From a virus: a DNA stretch of 61,021 bases. How positions within the stretch are numbered: position 1 is the stretch's first letter; every line of letters begins with the position of its first letter. The position numbers and the translations under genes are program-made. Under the pieces are notes generated by a model that was given only the letters and a program-made list of their open reading frames with translations, was not told the DNA's origin and searched no databases. The DNA is taken from positions 1-61,021 of the IMG/VR virus record IMGVR_UViG_3300009164_002749; one strand, written 5' to 3'. This document shows, piece after piece, positions 34,115 to 43,411 of the stretch.

Positions 34115-36868
34115 TTATTTATTGACCAGATTGTCAATGGTCTCGGAAAGTTGAGCAATTTGTTTTTGCTGTTCTTTTATGGCTTCTACTAACAATGGTA
34201 CTAATTTCTCGTATTGAATAGTCTTGTAATCCTCTCCAGATTTACTGTTTCCATTTTCATCTTGATCAAACGGTGCTGGTCTAACTGCTTCTGGTAGAAC
34301 TGCATCTACTTCATCGGCAAATAGTCCAACGATTGTTTTATCGGATGTGTATCCAAAACTTCTTGCTAAATCGTTCGGTGTATATAAAATACCATTTAAT
34401 GATAACACCTTTTGTACAGCATTGTCAATGATTTTGACATTTTCTTTTAATCTTCTGTCCGAATAATATGCTGTAATTTCATTAGTAGCACGAATCTCAC
34501 CAGTTGTACCGCTTGGCGCTGTACCAACTCCTAATGATCCGTTAATTCTTTCGTTACCGTTAACATAACTGTTACCAGTATTGTAGATACCCCAGCTATT
34601 TGTAAATGTTACATTTGTACTTGCAACAGGAGCCTGAACATATAAGTTAATAGCATCAGTGACTGTAATTGCGTTAGTAGACGCAAAGCTAGGACTGTGA
34701 AAACTTGCACCAACTTTTCCTGATACTGTGCCTGCAATAGCAGTAGTATCAGTTAATGCTGCGGCAGCACTATGGAACACCGGACTGGTTGTTGTCCATG
34801 CAGTAGAACTAATATTACCTGTTCTAGTAAATGCTGTGGCATTAATAGTTCCCACAACTCCTAATGTACTGATAGAATTAGTCCATGTAAAGTTGCCTGA
34901 GAATGTTGTTGCACCTGCGGCACTTTGATAAGGAATTTGATTAACTAGGCCGCCAGCAATATTTGTAGCGGTAGTTGAACTGCCAGCACTTAGTCCAGAT
35001 GCCAATGACCACTGAGGAGCACTTGCACCCGCAGTTAACACGTATCCGCTTGTACCTAATGCTAGTTTAGTTAGTGCTGTACCTGAAGCATAATAAGCAA
35101 TGTCACCAGCAGTCCAAGATGATAATCCTGTACCACCGTTGTTAGTTGCAACTACACCTGTAACATTTGCAGAACTACCTGAAATATTATTTGTACTTAA
35201 TGCCGTTGCAATTTGCGCACCAGTTGCCGCAGTAAATGCACTTGTACCATTACCGTAGGCAACACCAGTTAGTGTATTAACACCTGTACCACCGTTGGCT
35301 GCACCTAATGTTTGTGTCCACTGAGGTGCCGTTGCACCTGTATTTACTGTTAAGAAATATCCTGCTGTACCAATTGCTAAGAAAGTAGTTGTGGCAGCGC
35401 CTGATTGATAAGGTAAGCTGCCTGCACTACCGCCCGCTATGTTGCCGGCAGTACCAGATGCATTTCCTGTTAGTGCTCCAACAAATGTAGTAGCTGTTAC
35501 TGATCCAGTAATTGTTGCACCTGCACTACCTGTGATTAGGCCACCTACATATAATTTGTCACCTATGCCAACGCCGCCATTGACAACTAATGCTCCAGTT
35601 GATGTAGAACTTGCAGCAATACCTGCAATAATTTTTACTGTACCGGTTGAATCAACTGTAACACGATCAATAGCATTAGTAGTTAATTTTAAAGAGTTTG
35701 TAGCAGGAAATATTGAGAATGATTCAGACCCTGCGTTATTAGTTAATGCTGCTTGATTAGCATCGGAGTACAAAACACCAATTTGGCCTGTACTAGCACC
35801 TCGGAATTTTAATATAGAATTTGCACTACTGATAATATGCAACGGTGCAGTTGGAGTATCGACACCAATACCGTGATATCCAGAGCTAGGAATAAATGTT
35901 AGTCCACTAGTAGCTGCTGTTTTGATTCCTGTGTTACCTGTACTTGTTGATACAAATGTAACATACATTGGAGTAATTGTAGCAATATCATTTGTAATAG
36001 TGACATTAGTTGCTGTACCTGCACTTAGTCCACTAATTGCAGTCCATTGAGGTGCTGTTGCGCCTGCGGTTAATACAAATCCGCTTGTACCCAAAGCCAA
36101 CATTGTTGTTGTATCTGCGGCTGTTTGATATGGCAAACTGCCAGCTACTCCGCCTACTACATTTGTTGCTTTGGAAGCTGTTCCTGTTAAACTAGCAGTA
36201 ATTGTGCCTGCTGAGAAATTGCCGCCGGCATCTCTAAATACCAAAGTACTAACTGTATTTGAGCTTGTACCGTTTGATGTAACAGTAAATGTCTGTGTCT
36301 CACCAGTTGTTGATCCACTTAGACCATAACCTGATGTAGCACCAGTTGAAACATAATCACCAGTTGTATCTGTTCCTAATACTACACTGTTAGGTTGAAT
36401 GGTTAAATTAACGCTGGTTACATCAGCACTACCATCAATACTAAATGTACCAGTTGTATCACCGGTAAATGTCACTGTTCTAGCAGTAGACCATTTTGTT
36501 GCTACTGTTGCTGTTCCTACAGATAAGGTAGACTGTGCTACATAACTAGGAGCAGAAGAGCCGTTACTGCTTAAAATAGATCCTACAGTTGATGTAGTTA
36601 CAAAACCAGTTGTACCTGGAGCACTTTGATAAACTAATTGCCCTGCTAGGCCATTGGCTATATTAGTAGCAGTGGTAACACTTCCACTTCCGGAGACTGT
36701 TCCGTATATTATTCCGCCAACATATAAATTTCCACCAACACCTGCACCACCTATTACCTGTAACGCACCGGTAATAGTCGACGATGCCGCATTGGTTCCG
36801 CTGACAAAAAGTTGGGTATCAACGGTTCCGGTACCGTATATTCTTGTTCCAGTTAATAGTTTTGCCAT
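34115..36868 (-). CDS. Tail fibre with C-terminal S74 intramolecular chaperone
   Basis: The 917-residue protein has a fibre shaft of Thr/Ser/Ala/Gly-rich beta repeats and ends in a peptidase S74 chaperone (about 801-917). Its SDRRLKEN (803-810) carries the Ser803/Lys808 self-cleavage dyad, followed by VLSLNGILYT, VGLFADEVDAVLPEAV and a coiled-coil end. S74 domains trimerise the fibre and then release themselves. The shaft repeats the TGALxVxGGxGxGG...L.VGG module seen in the other fibre genes. A late box (AATAAATA) lies 7 nt before the ATG. Confidence 0.88.
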   Translation of the reverse strand: MAKLLTGTRIYGTGTVDTQLFVSGTNAASSTITGALQVIGGAGVGGNLYVGGIIYGTVSGSGSVTTATNIANGLAGQLVYQSAPGTTGFVTTSTVGSILSSNGSSAPSYVAQSTLSVGTATVATKWSTARTVTFTGDTTGTFSIDGSADVTSVNLTIQPNSVVLGTDTTGDYVSTGATSGYGLSGSTTGETQTFTVTSNGTSSNTVSTLVFRDAGGNFSAGTITASLTGTASKATNVVGGVAGSLPYQTAADTTTMLALGTSGFVLTAGATAPQWTAISGLSAGTATNVTITNDIATITPMYVTFVSTSTGNTGIKTAATSGLTFIPSSGYHGIGVDTPTAPLHIISSANSILKFRGASTGQIGVLYSDANQAALTNNAGSESFSIFPATNSLKLTTNAIDRVTVDSTGTVKIIAGIAASSTSTGALVVNGGVGIGDKLYVGGLITGSAGATITGSVTATTFVGALTGNASGTAGNIAGGSAGSLPYQSGAATTTFLAIGTAGYFLTVNTGATAPQWTQTLGAANGGTGVNTLTGVAYGNGTSAFTAATGAQIATALSTNNISGSSANVTGVVATNNGGTGLSSWTAGDIAYYASGTALTKLALGTSGYVLTAGASAPQWSLASGLSAGSSTTATNIAGGLVNQIPYQSAAGATTFSGNFTWTNSISTLGVVGTINATAFTRTGNISSTAWTTTSPVFHSAAAALTDTTAIAGTVSGKVGASFHSPSFASTNAITVTDAINLYVQAPVASTNVTFTNSWGIYNTGNSYVNGNERINGSLGVGTAPSGTTGEIRATNEITAYYSDRRLKENVKIIDNAVQKVLSLNGILYTPNDLARSFGYTSDKTIVGLFADEVDAVLPEAVRPAPFDQDENGNSKSGEDYKTIQYEKLVPLLVEAIKEQQKQIAQLSETIDNLVNK

Positions 36869-36891: not shown

Positions 36892-37113
36892 TTAAGTTGG
36901 TTTATCCACTTCATTAAACCCATTTGATACTAACAATGTTCCTGTATTAGTTTCACGTTTTGATATGGCGCCATTGTTAATAGATACTTCATCAAACTGT
37001 GCGGCATAATACGTTGTAGTTGTTAATCTAATAGTAGAGGTTGTTACTTCGTCAAATTCTCCACTGATAAACAGTGTACCTGTTGATGTTAGTCTAGATG
37101 CAACAGTTGCCAT
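36892..37113 (-). CDS. Small repetitive protein with FDEV motifs
   Basis: The 73-residue protein contains three copies of an x-FDEV/FNEV motif (SGEFDEVT, AAQFDEVS, SNGFNEVD) spaced about 25 residues apart, each after a short Thr-rich strand. This beta-hairpin repeat family occurs at fibre loci of aquatic T4-like phages; a structural or adaptor role is likely but unproven. Its ATG overlaps the stop of the 1732-residue fibre gene (TAATG), so it is translationally coupled. Confidence 0.55.
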   Translation of the reverse strand: MATVASRLTSTGTLFISGEFDEVTTSTIRLTTTTYYAAQFDEVSINNGAISKRETNTGTLLVSNGFNEVDKPT

Positions 37114-40100
37114 TATCCAAACACCGTATCTAAACTATTTGTAGCAGCGTTATAGAATTGATAAACTGCACTTGTTCCTGTCGAAGTTCCAAATCCAACT
37201 CTGTTACCAACATAGACACTGTCTTTAACACCAACGCCACCTGTTACAGTTAATGCACCAGTATTTGTTGATGTACTTGCGGTTGTATTTGTAATACCAA
37301 TTGAATTATTAGTAGTTGCACCTCTAGTAGTAACAGTTTGTAATGTGCTAGTATTCGATACTGTTACAGCACCTGTACTTGTATTGACCGCAGTATCAGT
37401 GCCTGCAAATATTGTTGTCTGCGTTGCCTGTGTAACAAATTGATTAACTGTAGCAGTTGTTATAATCTGTGCGCCAGCAACATATGATGTGTTAAGAACA
37501 TATAATGCACCGCCTATACCAACTCCACCAGTTACCTGTAATGCACCACTGTTAGTTGATATTGCTGCGGTTGCATTTGTAATACTAATTGCGGCATTGG
37601 TAGTTGCACCACGACCAGTTACAGTCTGTAATGTACTTGTATTCCAAATTGTAATAACACCAGTGCTTGTATTAACAGCAGTATCAGTGCCAGCAAATAC
37701 AGTTGTCTGGCTGGCATATTGATTAACTGTGGCAGTTGTTATAATCTGTGCGCCGGAAACATAACTTGTCTGGCCAATATATACTGCGCCACCTATACCA
37801 ACTCCGCCAGCGACTTGTAGGACACCAGTTATAGTTGAACTAGATGCAGTAGTATCTACTAGGATAATACTACCAAGACGGAATGTTCCGTTTGTACCAG
37901 TTATGTTAATATCGTTATCAGGGCCTGCGTGAGATAACCATTCTAGATAACCTGTGGCATTATCGCGGCCTAAGAAAGAGTTGCGATCTGCAGTATCATA
38001 GTAATGGAAACGGAAACCAATATCTTTTCCGTCATTACCAAACCATTCTGGGCTGTAGTGTAGTTCAGTTATGTTATCAGTATAAACGGTGTTAGTTGAT
38101 AATATGTAAGTAGTAGTACCGCTGAATATAACATTATTTTGGAATACGGCAGGCCCATTTACAAACAATGATGAGCCAATTCCAACACCGCCTGCTACAT
38201 ACAATGCATTATTTTGTACCGTAGAAGTGCTGGCTACGGTGCTTAAAATAGTTGCACTACTGCCAACATTCAATGTCTTACCAATTCCAACACCACCTAC
38301 AACAGTAACAGCTCCTGTAATAGTTGAGCTACTATCTGTAGAGTTAGTAAAGATAAATGTGCTAGTGGTTGTAGTTGTCAATCCTTGAGCACCTGTTGCA
38401 CCTGTTGCACCTGTTGCACCCCTAGGGCCTTGTCCACCTTGTACGCTGTTTTCTAAGGCTGCATAATCAATCCATGTTCTGTGTGCTGTGTTGCCTGAAG
38501 ATACATGATATATTCTAGCAGTAACTTTACCACCTGACAAGTATGGGGCAGAATCAATAACACTTAGAATAAATTGGAACCAGTTTGTTGATCCTGAATA
38601 GGTAGTAAGTGTATCCCATGTTAGTGTCGCATAGTTGTACAAATCAATTTCTACAGTATGACCTGATGATGCTGTATAGTTGATGTTTAATACTAATCTT
38701 GTAAAATCAGTAACATTAGAGAAGCCAATGTAGACTACGTATGCTGGAGCACCTGTGGCATCATTGATGCTATAGAATCCAGTATTAGTTCCAGTATTGT
38801 AATCATTAATTGTACTAACATCATTTACGGTGCCAAAATTGTAAGTACCGTAGCTAGTGCTTGTTCCTGCTATTGTAGACAATCCTGTTTGTGATGTAGG
38901 ATCGTTGGTAATATAAGTTGCAGTAAATGTAACTGTTTCTAAATCGCCTGCTGTGAGAATCTTTGATCCGTTAACATAGCTGGTATTTGCTACATTGATT
39001 GATCCACCTATGCCTAAATAGTTTGCAAAATAGCTATCACCAGTAACACCTAAACCTCCACTACTAATTTTTAATGTTTGGCTAGTAACTGTGCCGCTGC
39101 TTGCAACACCGCCACTCAGTGTACTAGTTGTAGACCAAATAGGTGCATTGTTAACATAAGTTAACACGCTGTTTGTAGAACCACCTGCTAGCAATGCTGT
39201 TGTGTCTGTAGCAGATTGGTACACTAAACTGCCAGTGCTGCCACCTAATACATTTGTTGCATAGGTAGCAGTACTAGCAGTTAATGCCAATGTGGCAGTT
39301 GTTGCTAACAATGCTGCGGCTGCTGTGTCAGCGTATCCTACACGGATACTTGTTGTGTTTGTATATTGCGGACCGCTTGTTCCATTACTTGTTAAGATTT
39401 GACCTGCTGTGCCGGGCCCTGCAAATCCAGTAGAGCTTGTAGTTACTTGATACACTACCTGGCCAGCGGTACCACCTTTAACATTATCAGCAAATGATGT
39501 GTTTCCAGAACTTAAATTACCTAAAGATGTCCACTCTGGGGTTAACCCATTAGATGTTAAAATATAAGTTGATGTTCCTATTCCTAAGAATGTAGTAACA
39601 CCGGATGTTGTTTGATACGGGACACTTCCGCCTAATCCACCGGCAATATTAGTTGCTGTATTTGCTAACAATGCTAGAGTAGCCGTATTTGCTAACAATG
39701 CTATTGTAGCAGTATTTGCTAGTAATGCTAAAGTTGCTGTCTCAGCAGTTAGTGCATAAGTTGCTGTATTTGCTAACAATGCTATTGTAGCAGTATTTGC
39801 TAACAATGCAAAAGTGGCAGTATTTGCTAACAATGCAAAAGTGGCAGTGTCTGCTAATAATGCATGAGTAGCTGTTTCAGCAGTTAGTGCATAAGTTGCT
39901 GTATTTGCTAGCAATGCAAAAGTAGATGTTCCGCCATTCAACGCATAAGTTGCTGTTGTTGCTAACAATGCAAAAGTGGCAGTGTCTGCTAATAATGCAT
40001 GAGTAGCTGTTTCAGCAGTTAGTGCATAAGTTGCTGTATTTGCTAGCAATGCAAAAGTGGCAGTGTCTGCTAATAATGCATGAGTAGCTGTTTCAGCAGT

Positions 40101-42311
40101 TAGTGCATAAGTTGCCGTTGTTGCTAAAGATGAATAAGTGGCCGTATTTGCCAGCAATGCAAAAGTAGCCGTATTTGCTAGTAATGCTAAAGTTGCTGTT
40201 CCGGCAGTTTGTGCGTATACAGCATCAGTAACAAATTCTGCATAAGTTGCAGTAAATGCATATGTCGACGATGTGGCAAAACCGGCAGTCGTTGCAGTAA
40301 ATGCATATGTTGACGATGTAGCAAAACCAGCAGTCGTTGCATAAGTCGCTGTATTTGCTAACAATGCTAATGTAGCTGTGTTTGCAAGTAGTGCTAATGT
40401 GGCTGTATCTGCAAGCAATGCACGAGTTGCCGTGTTTGCTGATAACGCATAAGTTGCTGTGTTTGCTAACAATGCCAATGTAGCAGTGTCGGCTAACAAT
40501 GCACGAGTTGCTGTATTTGCAAATAATGCTGTAGTGGCTGTATCTGCAAGCAATGCACGAGTTGCTGTGGTAGCCAATAATGCTGTGGTAGCGGTATTTG
40601 CTAGTAATGCGTAAGTTGCTGTATCTGCAAGTAAAGCACGAGTTGCTGTATTTGCAAATAATGCTGTAGTGGCAGTAGTTGCATATCCTACAGTTAATGT
40701 ACTAGCAGTAGTCCATTGAGGAACAGATGAAGTAGCGTTAAATGTTAATACACTGCCATTTGCGCCATTTGCTAAGAATGTTGTTCGTCCGACAGAAGTT
40801 TGATATACTATATTTCCTGCTAGACCGGCGGCTAAATGACTTGCAGTAGATGAAAACTCTACAGACCCTTGAGTTGCATATCCCCATTCTGCTGTATTAG
40901 ACCCCAAGTTCCATAATAACACCTGGCCTTGAGAACTACCAGGAGTAATGAAAGTTGTAACGCCATTATTTGTTTGGATTGGAATTGATCCATTTTGTCC
41001 GCCAGTTAAATTCTGCGAACGAGAAATTGTACCAATTAATATCTGTGTTAGAGTATTGTAAAATATATTTGATTGGCTGGCCAGTCTGCTATCGGAAGTT
41101 TGATAAACTAATCCATTGTTAGTAACTGTACTGTAGAAAGATACATTGGTTGCGGTAACTGTGCCGCCTACTCTCAAATCTTTGCCAATACCAACGCCGC
41201 CAACAACAGTTAGTGCGCCTGTGTTTGTAGTCCCGTTGTTTGAGGTAGTATTTGCTACCTGAATTGCACCAGTCTTAAATTCTCCATAGACTGTATTAGA
41301 AATTACACCATCAAATTCAGTTGAATCACTAAAAAATTCTAACTTCTTAGAATTGTTAGATAATAGTAGCAATGCATTTTTGTCACTGCTATTGTAATAA
41401 TTAAATCTAAAACCAATATCTTTGCCGTCATCGGCAATCCAGGTACCGTCAATACCAGTTAGTGGCACATGTAAATCTATTAAATTATCTGTATAGATTG
41501 TATTTGTACTGTAAACGTAGGTTGTTGCACCTTGAAAATACACATCATTCTTAAAGACTGCTGTTCCACTAACTGCCAGGCCACCGTATATTCCAACACC
41601 GCCTTCTACATATAACGCATTAGATTGTAATGTTCCAGTATTTGATGCGGTGCTTAAAATAATAGCATTTCTAGCTACGCGAATGCCGCCTGCTATTTTG
41701 ACTGCACCTGAACCTGCATAAGATGCAAGTGTGCCATCATCAAATGTTGATTGTCCTTGTACAGACAGTGTAGATAATAAACTAGCAGCACCAGTTAGTA
41801 ATGAATTAACACCAACAGTTAAATTGTTGCCTACATATAAATTCTTAGCAACACCTATTCCGCCATTGACAACCAATGCTCCGGTGTTAGTTGATGTAGA
41901 ATTAGTAGTATCTGTAAATTGTGCAGATGCTGTAACTAACTTAACTGAGCTTATTGTACTAGAAAATAATACAGTAGTACCAGTTGATGATAATACAACA
42001 TTACCAATGTATAAAGAACTACCGCTTAAATATAAATCGCTAAATGGGTTAGATGCTGAGCCAAGACTTAGACCGGATGTTATAGGAACTAACGGTCCAC
42101 CTAAATTTGTTTGTCCAGTTACAGTTAGAGAGTTTTGTAGAAGCGTATTTCCAAAAATAGTTGCAGTTGTTCCTACAATTAAATTCTTAGCAATAGCAAC
42201 TCCGCCTGCAACTTGTAAGGCGTCTGTTTGATTTGTAGCACTGGTAACGGCACTATCGCCCTCGATAATTACACCGTTCTTGACTACAAAATCTCTATTA
42301 ATCGCCACCAT
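37113..42311 (-). CDS. Giant fibre-like protein with 9-residue Ala-rich repeats
   Basis: The 1732-residue protein is a long fibre. In order: an N-terminal part with GGVGIGK-type modules and two similar folded segments (IDLHVPLTGIDGTWIADDGKDIGFRF; a second related one later at HYSPEWFGNDGKDIGFRF); a region (about 540-890) of more than 30 tandem 9-residue units such as TATRALLAD and TATFALLAN; more beta modules; a Gly-x-Ala/Thr collagen-like stretch (GPRGATGATGATGAQG, near 1300); and repeated TNTGALTVTGGVGV modules to the end. The repeats place Ala at every third residue. It has a GGAGAGAA Shine-Dalgarno site. It probably binds receptors. Confidence 0.82.
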   Translation of the reverse strand: MVAINRDFVVKNGVIIEGDSAVTSATNQTDALQVAGGVAIAKNLIVGTTATIFGNTLLQNSLTVTGQTNLGGPLVPITSGLSLGSASNPFSDLYLSGSSLYIGNVVLSSTGTTVLFSSTISSVKLVTASAQFTDTTNSTSTNTGALVVNGGIGVAKNLYVGNNLTVGVNSLLTGAASLLSTLSVQGQSTFDDGTLASYAGSGAVKIAGGIRVARNAIILSTASNTGTLQSNALYVEGGVGIYGGLAVSGTAVFKNDVYFQGATTYVYSTNTIYTDNLIDLHVPLTGIDGTWIADDGKDIGFRFNYYNSSDKNALLLLSNNSKKLEFFSDSTEFDGVISNTVYGEFKTGAIQVANTTSNNGTTNTGALTVVGGVGIGKDLRVGGTVTATNVSFYSTVTNNGLVYQTSDSRLASQSNIFYNTLTQILIGTISRSQNLTGGQNGSIPIQTNNGVTTFITPGSSQGQVLLWNLGSNTAEWGYATQGSVEFSSTASHLAAGLAGNIVYQTSVGRTTFLANGANGSVLTFNATSSVPQWTTASTLTVGYATTATTALFANTATRALLADTATYALLANTATTALLATTATRALLADTATTALFANTATRALLADTATLALLANTATYALSANTATRALLADTATLALLANTATLALLANTATYATTAGFATSSTYAFTATTAGFATSSTYAFTATYAEFVTDAVYAQTAGTATLALLANTATFALLANTATYSSLATTATYALTAETATHALLADTATFALLANTATYALTAETATHALLADTATFALLATTATYALNGGTSTFALLANTATYALTAETATHALLADTATFALLANTATFALLANTATIALLANTATYALTAETATLALLANTATIALLANTATLALLANTATNIAGGLGGSVPYQTTSGVTTFLGIGTSTYILTSNGLTPEWTSLGNLSSGNTSFADNVKGGTAGQVVYQVTTSSTGFAGPGTAGQILTSNGTSGPQYTNTTSIRVGYADTAAAALLATTATLALTASTATYATNVLGGSTGSLVYQSATDTTALLAGGSTNSVLTYVNNAPIWSTTSTLSGGVASSGTVTSQTLKISSGGLGVTGDSYFANYLGIGGSINVANTSYVNGSKILTAGDLETVTFTATYITNDPTSQTGLSTIAGTSTSYGTYNFGTVNDVSTINDYNTGTNTGFYSINDATGAPAYVVYIGFSNVTDFTRLVLNINYTASSGHTVEIDLYNYATLTWDTLTTYSGSTNWFQFILSVIDSAPYLSGGKVTARIYHVSSGNTAHRTWIDYAALENSVQGGQGPRGATGATGATGAQGLTTTTTSTFIFTNSTDSSSTITGAVTVVGGVGIGKTLNVGSSATILSTVASTSTVQNNALYVAGGVGIGSSLFVNGPAVFQNNVIFSGTTTYILSTNTVYTDNITELHYSPEWFGNDGKDIGFRFHYYDTADRNSFLGRDNATGYLEWLSHAGPDNDINITGTNGTFRLGSIILVDTTASSSTITGVLQVAGGVGIGGAVYIGQTSYVSGAQIITTATVNQYASQTTVFAGTDTAVNTSTGVITIWNTSTLQTVTGRGATTNAAISITNATAAISTNSGALQVTGGVGIGGALYVLNTSYVAGAQIITTATVNQFVTQATQTTIFAGTDTAVNTSTGAVTVSNTSTLQTVTTRGATTNNSIGITNTTASTSTNTGALTVTGGVGVKDSVYVGNRVGFGTSTGTSAVYQFYNAATNSLDTVFG
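39645..40690 (-). repeat. Tandem 27-bp coding repeats (9-residue units)
   Basis: About 32 units of 27 bp encode (T-A-T)(x-A-L)(L-A-N/D/E), in a run of about 12 units, a divergent break near 40.2-40.35 kb, and about 20 more. Unit variants are shuffled (ALTAETATHALLAD occurs several times), suggesting unequal exchange. Confidence 0.85.
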
Positions 42312-42325
42312 TTAATTCTCTCCAG

Positions 42326-43411
42326 TTATACAGACATAGCTGTTCTTAGTACTTTAACAGTTTTAGGAGTAGCATCACTGGCAATAAATTTCAGCGAAAC
42401 TACAAAATCTCCTCCAGTATTTTGAAAATCTGCATCAAAATCTCCTAGATCTCCATCTGGGAATATGTTAGCATATTCTGTAATACTTACGGTTCCTGCG
42501 TTAGTTACTAATAACAAAAGTTCAGTTACCTGACAACGAGAGTTTATAATATCTCCTTCATCAATTTGTATCATATATTTTGCTGATCTAAATTGTTTGA
42601 ATGAGAATGTATCGATAACTGTCGGTGCTGTACTATTTACCATGACTGAAGATGAATCAAAAATGGCATCTGAAATTTTAACACTTTCGGCGTTTACTCG
42701 GCCTCCTACTCCAACACCACCTGTAACTACTAATGCACCAGTTGTGGTGCTAGTAGAAGAAGAAGTATTTGTAATGCGGAGTGTTCCAGTAATAGTACCA
42801 CCGTTATAGTTAGTCACTGGGGTAGCCCAAACAACTCCTGTAGCAGTAGTTGTTAGAACTTGTCCTGTTGTGCCGGTGGACCCTGCTGCATATAAGTATC
42901 CACCTAATGCTAAATTGCCGCCTAGGCCTAGGCCGCCTTTGACTACAACTGCACCTGTTACGGTAGAAATAGAGTTTGTTGTATTAAAGAATGAAACTCG
43001 ATTTGTTGTAGTAGATCCACGGCCTGTTACAGATTGTAAAGTAGATGTATTGGAAATAATTACTGCACCTGAACCCGGTTCAATGAATGCACTAATATCA
43101 GGGCCTTCAACAATGCCATCTGCAAAAGTTGCTGTTGTTAAGACATAATGGCCTTTAGCATATAAGTCGCCACCTAACCATAAGTCGCCACCAATACCAA
43201 CACCACCAAACACTACTAGAGATCCAGTAATAGTTGAAGTAGCATTTGTAGCTGATGAAATAATAACGCTGGTCGCTGTCAACGTACCAAACGTTGTACT
43301 CGGGTTTGGTGCTTTAATCCAAGCGTATCCTGTCCACTGATATATAATACCACCTACAGTATATCGATCGCCCGGATTAGGATTTGTGGGGAAATTTAAT
43401 GAAGTTGCCAT
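42326..43411 (-). CDS. Fibre/virion protein with GGVG modules
   Basis: The 361-residue protein starts with a small domain (NPNPGDRYTVGGIIYQWTGYAWIKAP) of the W-module type seen in the sheath and other fibres. It has three copies of the TITGSLVVFGGVGIGGDLWLGG-type module and ends in a folded beta domain from about residue 245 (SAKYMIQIDEGDIINSRCQ... TPKTVKVLRTAMSV). It probably forms part of a fibre or spike. There is no good Shine-Dalgarno site, and it is downstream of a related fibre gene by 16 bp. Confidence 0.65.
   Translation of the reverse strand: MATSLNFPTNPNPGDRYTVGGIIYQWTGYAWIKAPNPSTTFGTLTATSVIISSATNATSTITGSLVVFGGVGIGGDLWLGGDLYAKGHYVLTTATFADGIVEGPDISAFIEPGSGAVIISNTSTLQSVTGRGSTTTNRVSFFNTTNSISTVTGAVVVKGGLGLGGNLALGGYLYAAGSTGTTGQVLTTTATGVVWATPVTNYNGGTITGTLRITNTSSSTSTTTGALVVTGGVGVGGRVNAESVKISDAIFDSSSVMVNSTAPTVIDTFSFKQFRSAKYMIQIDEGDIINSRCQVTELLLLVTNAGTVSITEYANIFPDGDLGDFDADFQNTGGDFVVSLKFIASDATPKTVKVLRTAMSV

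Follow-up and report, generated by a model that had tools for sequence, protein, structure and literature searches.

Alpha/beta coiled coils are trimeric fibres built from nine-residue repeats (nonads) such as MATKDDIAN, in which three residues form a beta-layer whose central residue is usually small (PMC4786415). At beta2, the layers favor a small residue (Ala or Val, for example); they are spaced by six or nine residues and occur mostly in phage trimers, and tandem six-residue (hexad) spacing was then known to the authors of that paper only from a phage hyaluronidase (PMC4786415). Here we describe a 343-residue array with Ala at every third residue in a tail-fibre-like open reading frame (ORF) of IMG/VR virus record IMGVR_UViG_3300009164_002749. 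This linear record of 61,021 bases is referred to throughout, at its full length, as the window. We propose, with a probability of roughly 55%, that the array forms part of the shaft of a trimeric tail fibre, progressing in three-residue steps around an Ala core, and that duplication acted on the nonapeptide. The array and the parts of the ORF around it are located as follows.

37113 to 42311, minus strand: tail-fibre-like ORF of 1732 residues carrying the array (PHROG 697, "structural protein", expectation value (E) 8.7e-15; syntenic relative L001)
40692 to 40832, minus strand: fibre module preceding the array (GLAGNIVYQTSVGRTTFLANG...VPQW), followed by VGYA
39654 to 40682, minus strand: Ala-every-third array, residues 544-886 (343 residues), mostly TAT-xAL-LAN nonapeptides
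40191 to 40352, minus strand: irregular stretch of the array, residues 654-707, with a 45-base-pair (bp) period at 40246-40341
39492 to 39650, minus strand: fibre module following the array (NIAGGLGGSVPYQTTSGVTTFLGIG...TPEW)
39258 to 39332, minus strand: second short Ala-every-third array, residues 994-1018 (25 residues), in a later linker of the ORF

Ala occupies 109 of the 115 every-third positions, and the six exceptional triplets are SST (twice), FVT, YSS, NGG, and TST. The best every-third-Ala score of the ORF was 97, compared with a maximum of 7 in 1000 shuffles of the same ORF. A regular expression for the nonapeptide recovered 34 units, with unit-to-unit steps of nine residues except for steps of 12, 15, 24, and 18. 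Across these units, Ala fills position 5 in 34/34 and position 8 in 33/34, while position 2, the middle of the TAT triplet, is Ala in 31/34 and Ser in 3/34. Position 4 varies the most (Y, L, F, R, T, H, I), and N, D, T, E, and G all occur at position 9. Tandem Repeats Finder reported periods of 27, 81, 108, and 135 bp over 39651-40254 and of 27, 45, and 81 bp over 40246-40683. An earlier sequence-only reading had described more than 30 nine-residue units with Ala at every third position and a 27-bp period, and both descriptions agree with these results. A detail absent from that reading is that the nonapeptide gives way to 15-residue units at residues 654-707, where the three-residue register is kept.

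The variation between units indicates what is being conserved. Between units, codons at the Ala positions differed by 607 synonymous and 126 non-synonymous changes, compared with 18 synonymous and 473 non-synonymous changes at position 4. The synonymous excess at the Ala positions means that protein-level selection maintains the pattern, which is therefore not just a result of fresh DNA duplication. The array contains 1.5% Pro plus Gly, 5% charged residues, and 26.5% large hydrophobic residues, with Gly at 5 and Val at 2 of 343 positions. The claim that the array is neither collagen nor a heptad coiled coil was supported. A collagen-like triple helix was rejected for the low Gly count, since Gly would be needed at every third residue. 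Elsewhere in the same ORF, a short collagen-like GXY run, GPRGATGATGATGAQG, was observed at residues 1295-1310 (38382-38429, minus strand).

The array lies at a defined place in the fibre protein. The two flanking modules are copies of one form, GGxxGSxxYQxxxGxTxxLxxG...PxW, and the array fills the linker between them, from the A of VGYA to TATNIAGG. The linker at this position is short in most relatives. L001, a relative that also shares the neighboring ORFs, carries a 199-residue array at the same linker with another unit, mainly STYANIAFT. L053 carries a 91-residue array of the same unit type as L001, which is not truncated by the contig end. L001 and L053 were also seen to share the unusual units STYANIAFT and STYANTSNYAIVAG. 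Other arrays measured 64 and 121 residues (both in L041) and 31-34 residues (L007, L008, and L010). These differences in length and unit among relatives indicate that both are remodeled at one fixed site, and the expectation that array length would not be constant across relatives held, with lengths of 343, 199, 121, 91, 64, and 25-34 residues. Near-identical arrays were equal in length (34 residues each in L008, L010, and L046; 79 residues each in L201 and L214). Array change is therefore shown among relatives and not within a strain. Genes of P-SSM2 and P-SSM5 located by DNA similarity showed no array at the threshold used. As a separate observation, the proximal tail fibre gene, a single ORF in P-SSM2 (L249, 5759-9043), is split into two in P-SSM5 (L250, 5759-9042); the two genes are 99.6% identical, and the split reflects a frameshift or sequencing error.

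Arrays of this kind recur in other phages. We searched IMG/VR for stretches with GC at every ninth base twelve times over and obtained at least 120. From these we kept arrays rich in Ser/Thr/Asn and poor in Pro and Gly whose ORFs were 150 residues or longer, and excluded seven loci by hand. Among the 120 stretches listed, at least 28 loci carry arrays of the window's class, including arrays of 265 (L218), 286 (L236), 160 (L233), and 130 residues (L182). The simplest array found was a 70-residue one in L192 (nucleotides 111-320), composed of nearly pure ATT/ATN triplets. Where cyanophage DNA matched L218 and L233, the products annotated there included tail fibre, long tail fibre proximal subunit, baseplate wedge subunit, and hypothetical protein. 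In Synechococcus phage B23, gp324 (L254, MN695335.1) is annotated as "secretory antigen precursor" and is mostly Ala-every-third from about residue 333 to 1245, in ten segments; it is probably a mis-annotated fibre protein. Like the window array, those of B23 gp324, L218, L233, L041, and L001 keep the Ala triplet register and use Thr, Ser, Asn, Tyr, Phe, and Ile as the intervening residues; their unit sequences and lengths are different. A scan of genomes returned at least 118 stretches, chiefly collagen-like GAT runs; 44 of the 118 listed passed a loose filter, and most of the 28 inspected had Gly at every third residue. A different fibre-like repeat was noted in the first ORF (more than 2200 residues) of L002, a 194-kb phage contig, with repeats of about 23 residues of the type NNIAIGxxALxxNTTG. 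No Pfam family covered the arrays tested, and no published account of Ala-every-third arrays was found in the open-licence papers searched. The array type recurs in many other phage fibres and seems to lack a family name.

Comparing repeat lengths across arrays separated the larger unit from the triplet. We scored the lag of highest identity in 31 arrays of at least 45 residues, the window's included (L130, L140, L194, L197, L208, L230, and L234 were left out by hand). The best lag was 3 in one array (L192), 6 in four, 9 in five, 12 in four, 15 in two, 18 in three, 21, 24, and 27 in two each, and 30 and 33 in three each. Eleven best lags from 3 to 33 residues were thus observed, and the three-residue Ala register was common to all. 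The informative part of this survey is that the larger unit is free. Because the larger unit varies while the Ala triplet stays constant, the structural step is probably three residues. The steps seen can be absorbed by a three-residue step or by a mix of six- and nine-residue steps, and not by a fixed 18-residue turn.

Searches for known folds and relatives were carried out with the window array and with profiles of several arrays. Profile A4 comprised 37 of 61 prepared segments, and profile and alignment A5 comprised 22 of 27. The phmmer search with the window array gave a compositional match only. With profile A1 (six arrays), the nearest PDB match was 7o92 at E 0.03; with a broader array profile, 7o92 appeared at E 0.38, ranked behind a GSA linker, and the L041 arrays had no PDB match at E 1. 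PDB matches to THR2, CDC27, Spt5, and an endolysin fusion were rejected as compositional, and Pfam matches to Plasmodium HRP and other families were rejected as compositional and below their own cut-offs. The 7o92 and 7o97 entries (hypothetical protein UY81_C0065G0003, Candidatus Giovannonibacteria) resemble the array in having Ala at every third residue, within TATKAE hexads, and 7o92 contains three chains. Unlike the array, they are charged and short. A literature statement on 7o92 was looked for and not found; its sequence and entry name suggest an alpha/beta nature.

Among solved structures, the alpha/beta coiled coil with its hexads and nonads is the closest kind to the array, although no significant sequence similarity is left once the Ala phase is set aside. 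Tcar0761 (PDB 5APZ; Hartmann et al. 2016, PMC4786415) shares nine-residue fibre repeats, a small mid-triplet residue that is often Ala, and allowed steps of six and nine. Tcar0761 has 14 charged MATKDDIAN units with one Ala-centered beta-layer each, whereas all three triplets of the window unit are Ala-centered and few charges are present. The triple beta-helices of T4 gp5, gp12, and gp34 are slender trimeric phage shafts with intertwined chains, as proposed here; gp5 follows a VxGxxxxx octad and the gp34 triple helix is described as having no clear sequence motif, whereas the window has a three-residue Ala repeat (PMC4576200, PMC5537660). A T4 gp5-type triple-stranded beta-helix was rejected, as the octad is absent, the periods are nine and three, and Val and Gly are both rare.

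The genome setting agrees with a fibre role. The window is a fragment of a T4-like myovirus, with T4-type genes for UvsX, single-strand DNA-binding protein, terminase, portal, major head protein, tail sheath, and tail tube. The array ORF sits within a run of fibre-like ORFs, a tail-fibre gene cluster, with these neighbors.

34115 to 36868, minus strand: downstream neighboring fibre gene of 917 residues with a C-terminal Peptidase_S74 intramolecular chaperone (PF13884, E 6.2e-9; tail fibre PHROGs)
42326 to 43411, minus strand: neighboring fibre-like ORF, kept beside the array gene of L001
43428 to 45326, minus strand: neighboring fibre-like ORF matching tail spike PHROG 4636 and likewise conserved in L001

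The module after the array showed 41-46% identity to tail-fibre or tail-fibre-like products in five of seven matched records (Synechococcus phages S-B05, RN05-S, S-B43, and RB11-B, plus MW202520). The remaining two records were from S-SKS1, with products named hypothetical protein and baseplate wedge subunit. From the T4-type virion genes around it and the relatives annotated as tail fibre, we assign the ORF to a tail-fibre protein of a T4-like phage, in agreement with the sequence-only reading. A megablast search with 25 kb of the window found no phage record in the collection searched, which therefore has no known close isolate.

The T4-like virion gene context, the fibre neighbors, the S74 chaperone, and the place between fibre modules lead us to infer a trimeric shaft, and an Ala-cored trimeric rod fits the array well. 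The selected Ala pattern, the variable larger unit, the composition, and the three chains of 7o92, the nearest PDB match of profile A1, count in favor of this reading as well. The segment would most likely be a parallel homotrimer in which every chain progresses by three-residue steps. The Ala of each step would be directed to the three-fold axis and packed against its two copies, and the residues flanking it would face outward or form edges. The nine-residue unit would then be the copying unit of the array and not its structural unit, and whole-triplet changes could make the rod, and presumably the fibre, longer or shorter without breaking it. In a backbone scan of three-residue repeats, 2485 three-chain helices were free of clashes, pointed the middle C-beta inward, and made at least two hydrogen bonds per triplet. 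Of these, 2138 were beta-beta-alphaR, the median rise was 4.1 Å per triplet, and the middle C-beta lay at a median of 2.1 Å from the axis. By this modeling, the three-chain idea is possible rather than proven true.

Several results weigh against this proposal. The scan is crude, assumes ideal geometry, and serves as a feasibility test only; it also yielded 463 single-chain solutions. In 71% of the three-chain solutions the middle residue could take an extra gamma carbon, and in 29% this atom clashed clearly, so the scan alone leaves the exclusive use of Ala unexplained. Given 553 residues and six sequences, AlphaFold2 reached a predicted local distance difference test score (pLDDT) of 46, falling to 25-31 in part of the array. 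The arrays of the lag survey are not all independent, as some share a contig and L201 is nearly a copy of L214, and since the arrays were picked by their Ala register, its constancy is partly built in. Four-residue steps divide the B23 gp324 array into its ten segments, showing that the register of three is not absolute.

Other structures would account for parts of the same evidence. In an alpha/beta coiled coil with nonads like those of Tcar0761, three chains would form one beta-layer (TAT) and six helical residues (xAL-LAN) per nonapeptide. TATYALLAN aligns with MATKDDIAN in the expected and best register, with A, T, A, and N identical and L for I. The known preference of beta-layers for small residues at six- and nine-residue spacing, mostly in phage trimers as that source describes them (PMC4786415), the Ala-every-third hexads of 7o92, and the fact that steps of 12, 15, and 24 residues can be composed from sixes and nines all point the same way. 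When the templates were shuffled freely, 92 of 4000 scored as well (five families). With Ala fixed, however, 387 of 4000 did so for five families and 627 of 4000 for the window alone, and kinship with MATKDDIAN is therefore not established statistically. Positions f and b would be expected to face outward and vary, yet they are Ala in 34/34 and 33/34 units; with two of the three conserved Ala residues outward, the model fits the Ala invariance poorly. The L192 array, with its best lag of three, has no nonad. We regard this coiled coil as doubtful.

A single-chain beta-solenoid whose turn takes nine residues (one unit) or 18 draws on AlphaFold2, which modeled a 108-residue monomer from the 22 arrays of A5 as strand at residues 2-107, with a best pLDDT of 83.9 and a predicted template modeling score of 0.59; the backbone scan likewise makes single-chain tripeptide helices sterically possible. 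The all-beta model, being a monomer, says nothing for a trimer either, and only the best of the five models was confident (pLDDT 84 to 43). We gave it little weight because AlphaFold2 is known to invent beta-solenoids for repeats; one study counts confident ones in 32 of 78 random-repeat models (PMC11795689). Among the 50 Foldseek matches listed, left-handed beta-helix enzymes appeared at template modeling (TM) scores of 0.10-0.19 with root-mean-square deviations of about 10-12 Å, and the best VIA match had Z 4.8, to 9gh5 and 3suc. A fixed turn of nine or 18 residues is incompatible with steps of 12, 15, and 24. The left-handed parallel beta-helix with an 18-residue turn, one of the two folds suggested in the sequence-only reading beside an Ala-based trimeric rod, was rejected on register by these steps and by lags of 3-33 elsewhere, and the ORF had no hexapeptide-repeat Pfam match at E 0.1. 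A Thr/Ala-rich spacer joining fibre domains, flexible and largely unordered, with repeats arising from recombination only, would be in keeping with the low complexity, the lack of a Pfam family or solved relative in the searches run, and the low-pLDDT part of the array. Strong selection on the Ala register, the same register in differently sequenced arrays of other phages, and the composition speak against it; few Pro and Gly, few charges, and many large hydrophobic residues disfavor a plain flexible linker. We consider the spacer unlikely and the solenoid the least likely of these alternatives.

The Ala-cored trimeric shaft also allows a more tentative proposal, which we hold as possible though well short of probable. 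The arrays may be the third member of a series of nonad, hexad, and triad, with all triplets of the three chains equivalent (beta-beta-alphaR), Ala lining the three-fold axis, and a rise of about 4 Å per triplet, giving phages a freely extensible rod module. If the triad reading is true, the array would add on the order of 47 nm to the fibre (115 triplets at the 4.1 Å of the crude scan). These arrays recur in fibre genes of unrelated-looking phages, and the nearest solved sequence is a weak match. If the three-residue step is true, designers of protein fibres would gain a repeat of very small size, annotators could use a simple sequence rule to recognize shafts now called hypothetical or "secretory antigen", and recombination could tune the length of phage fibres in small increments.
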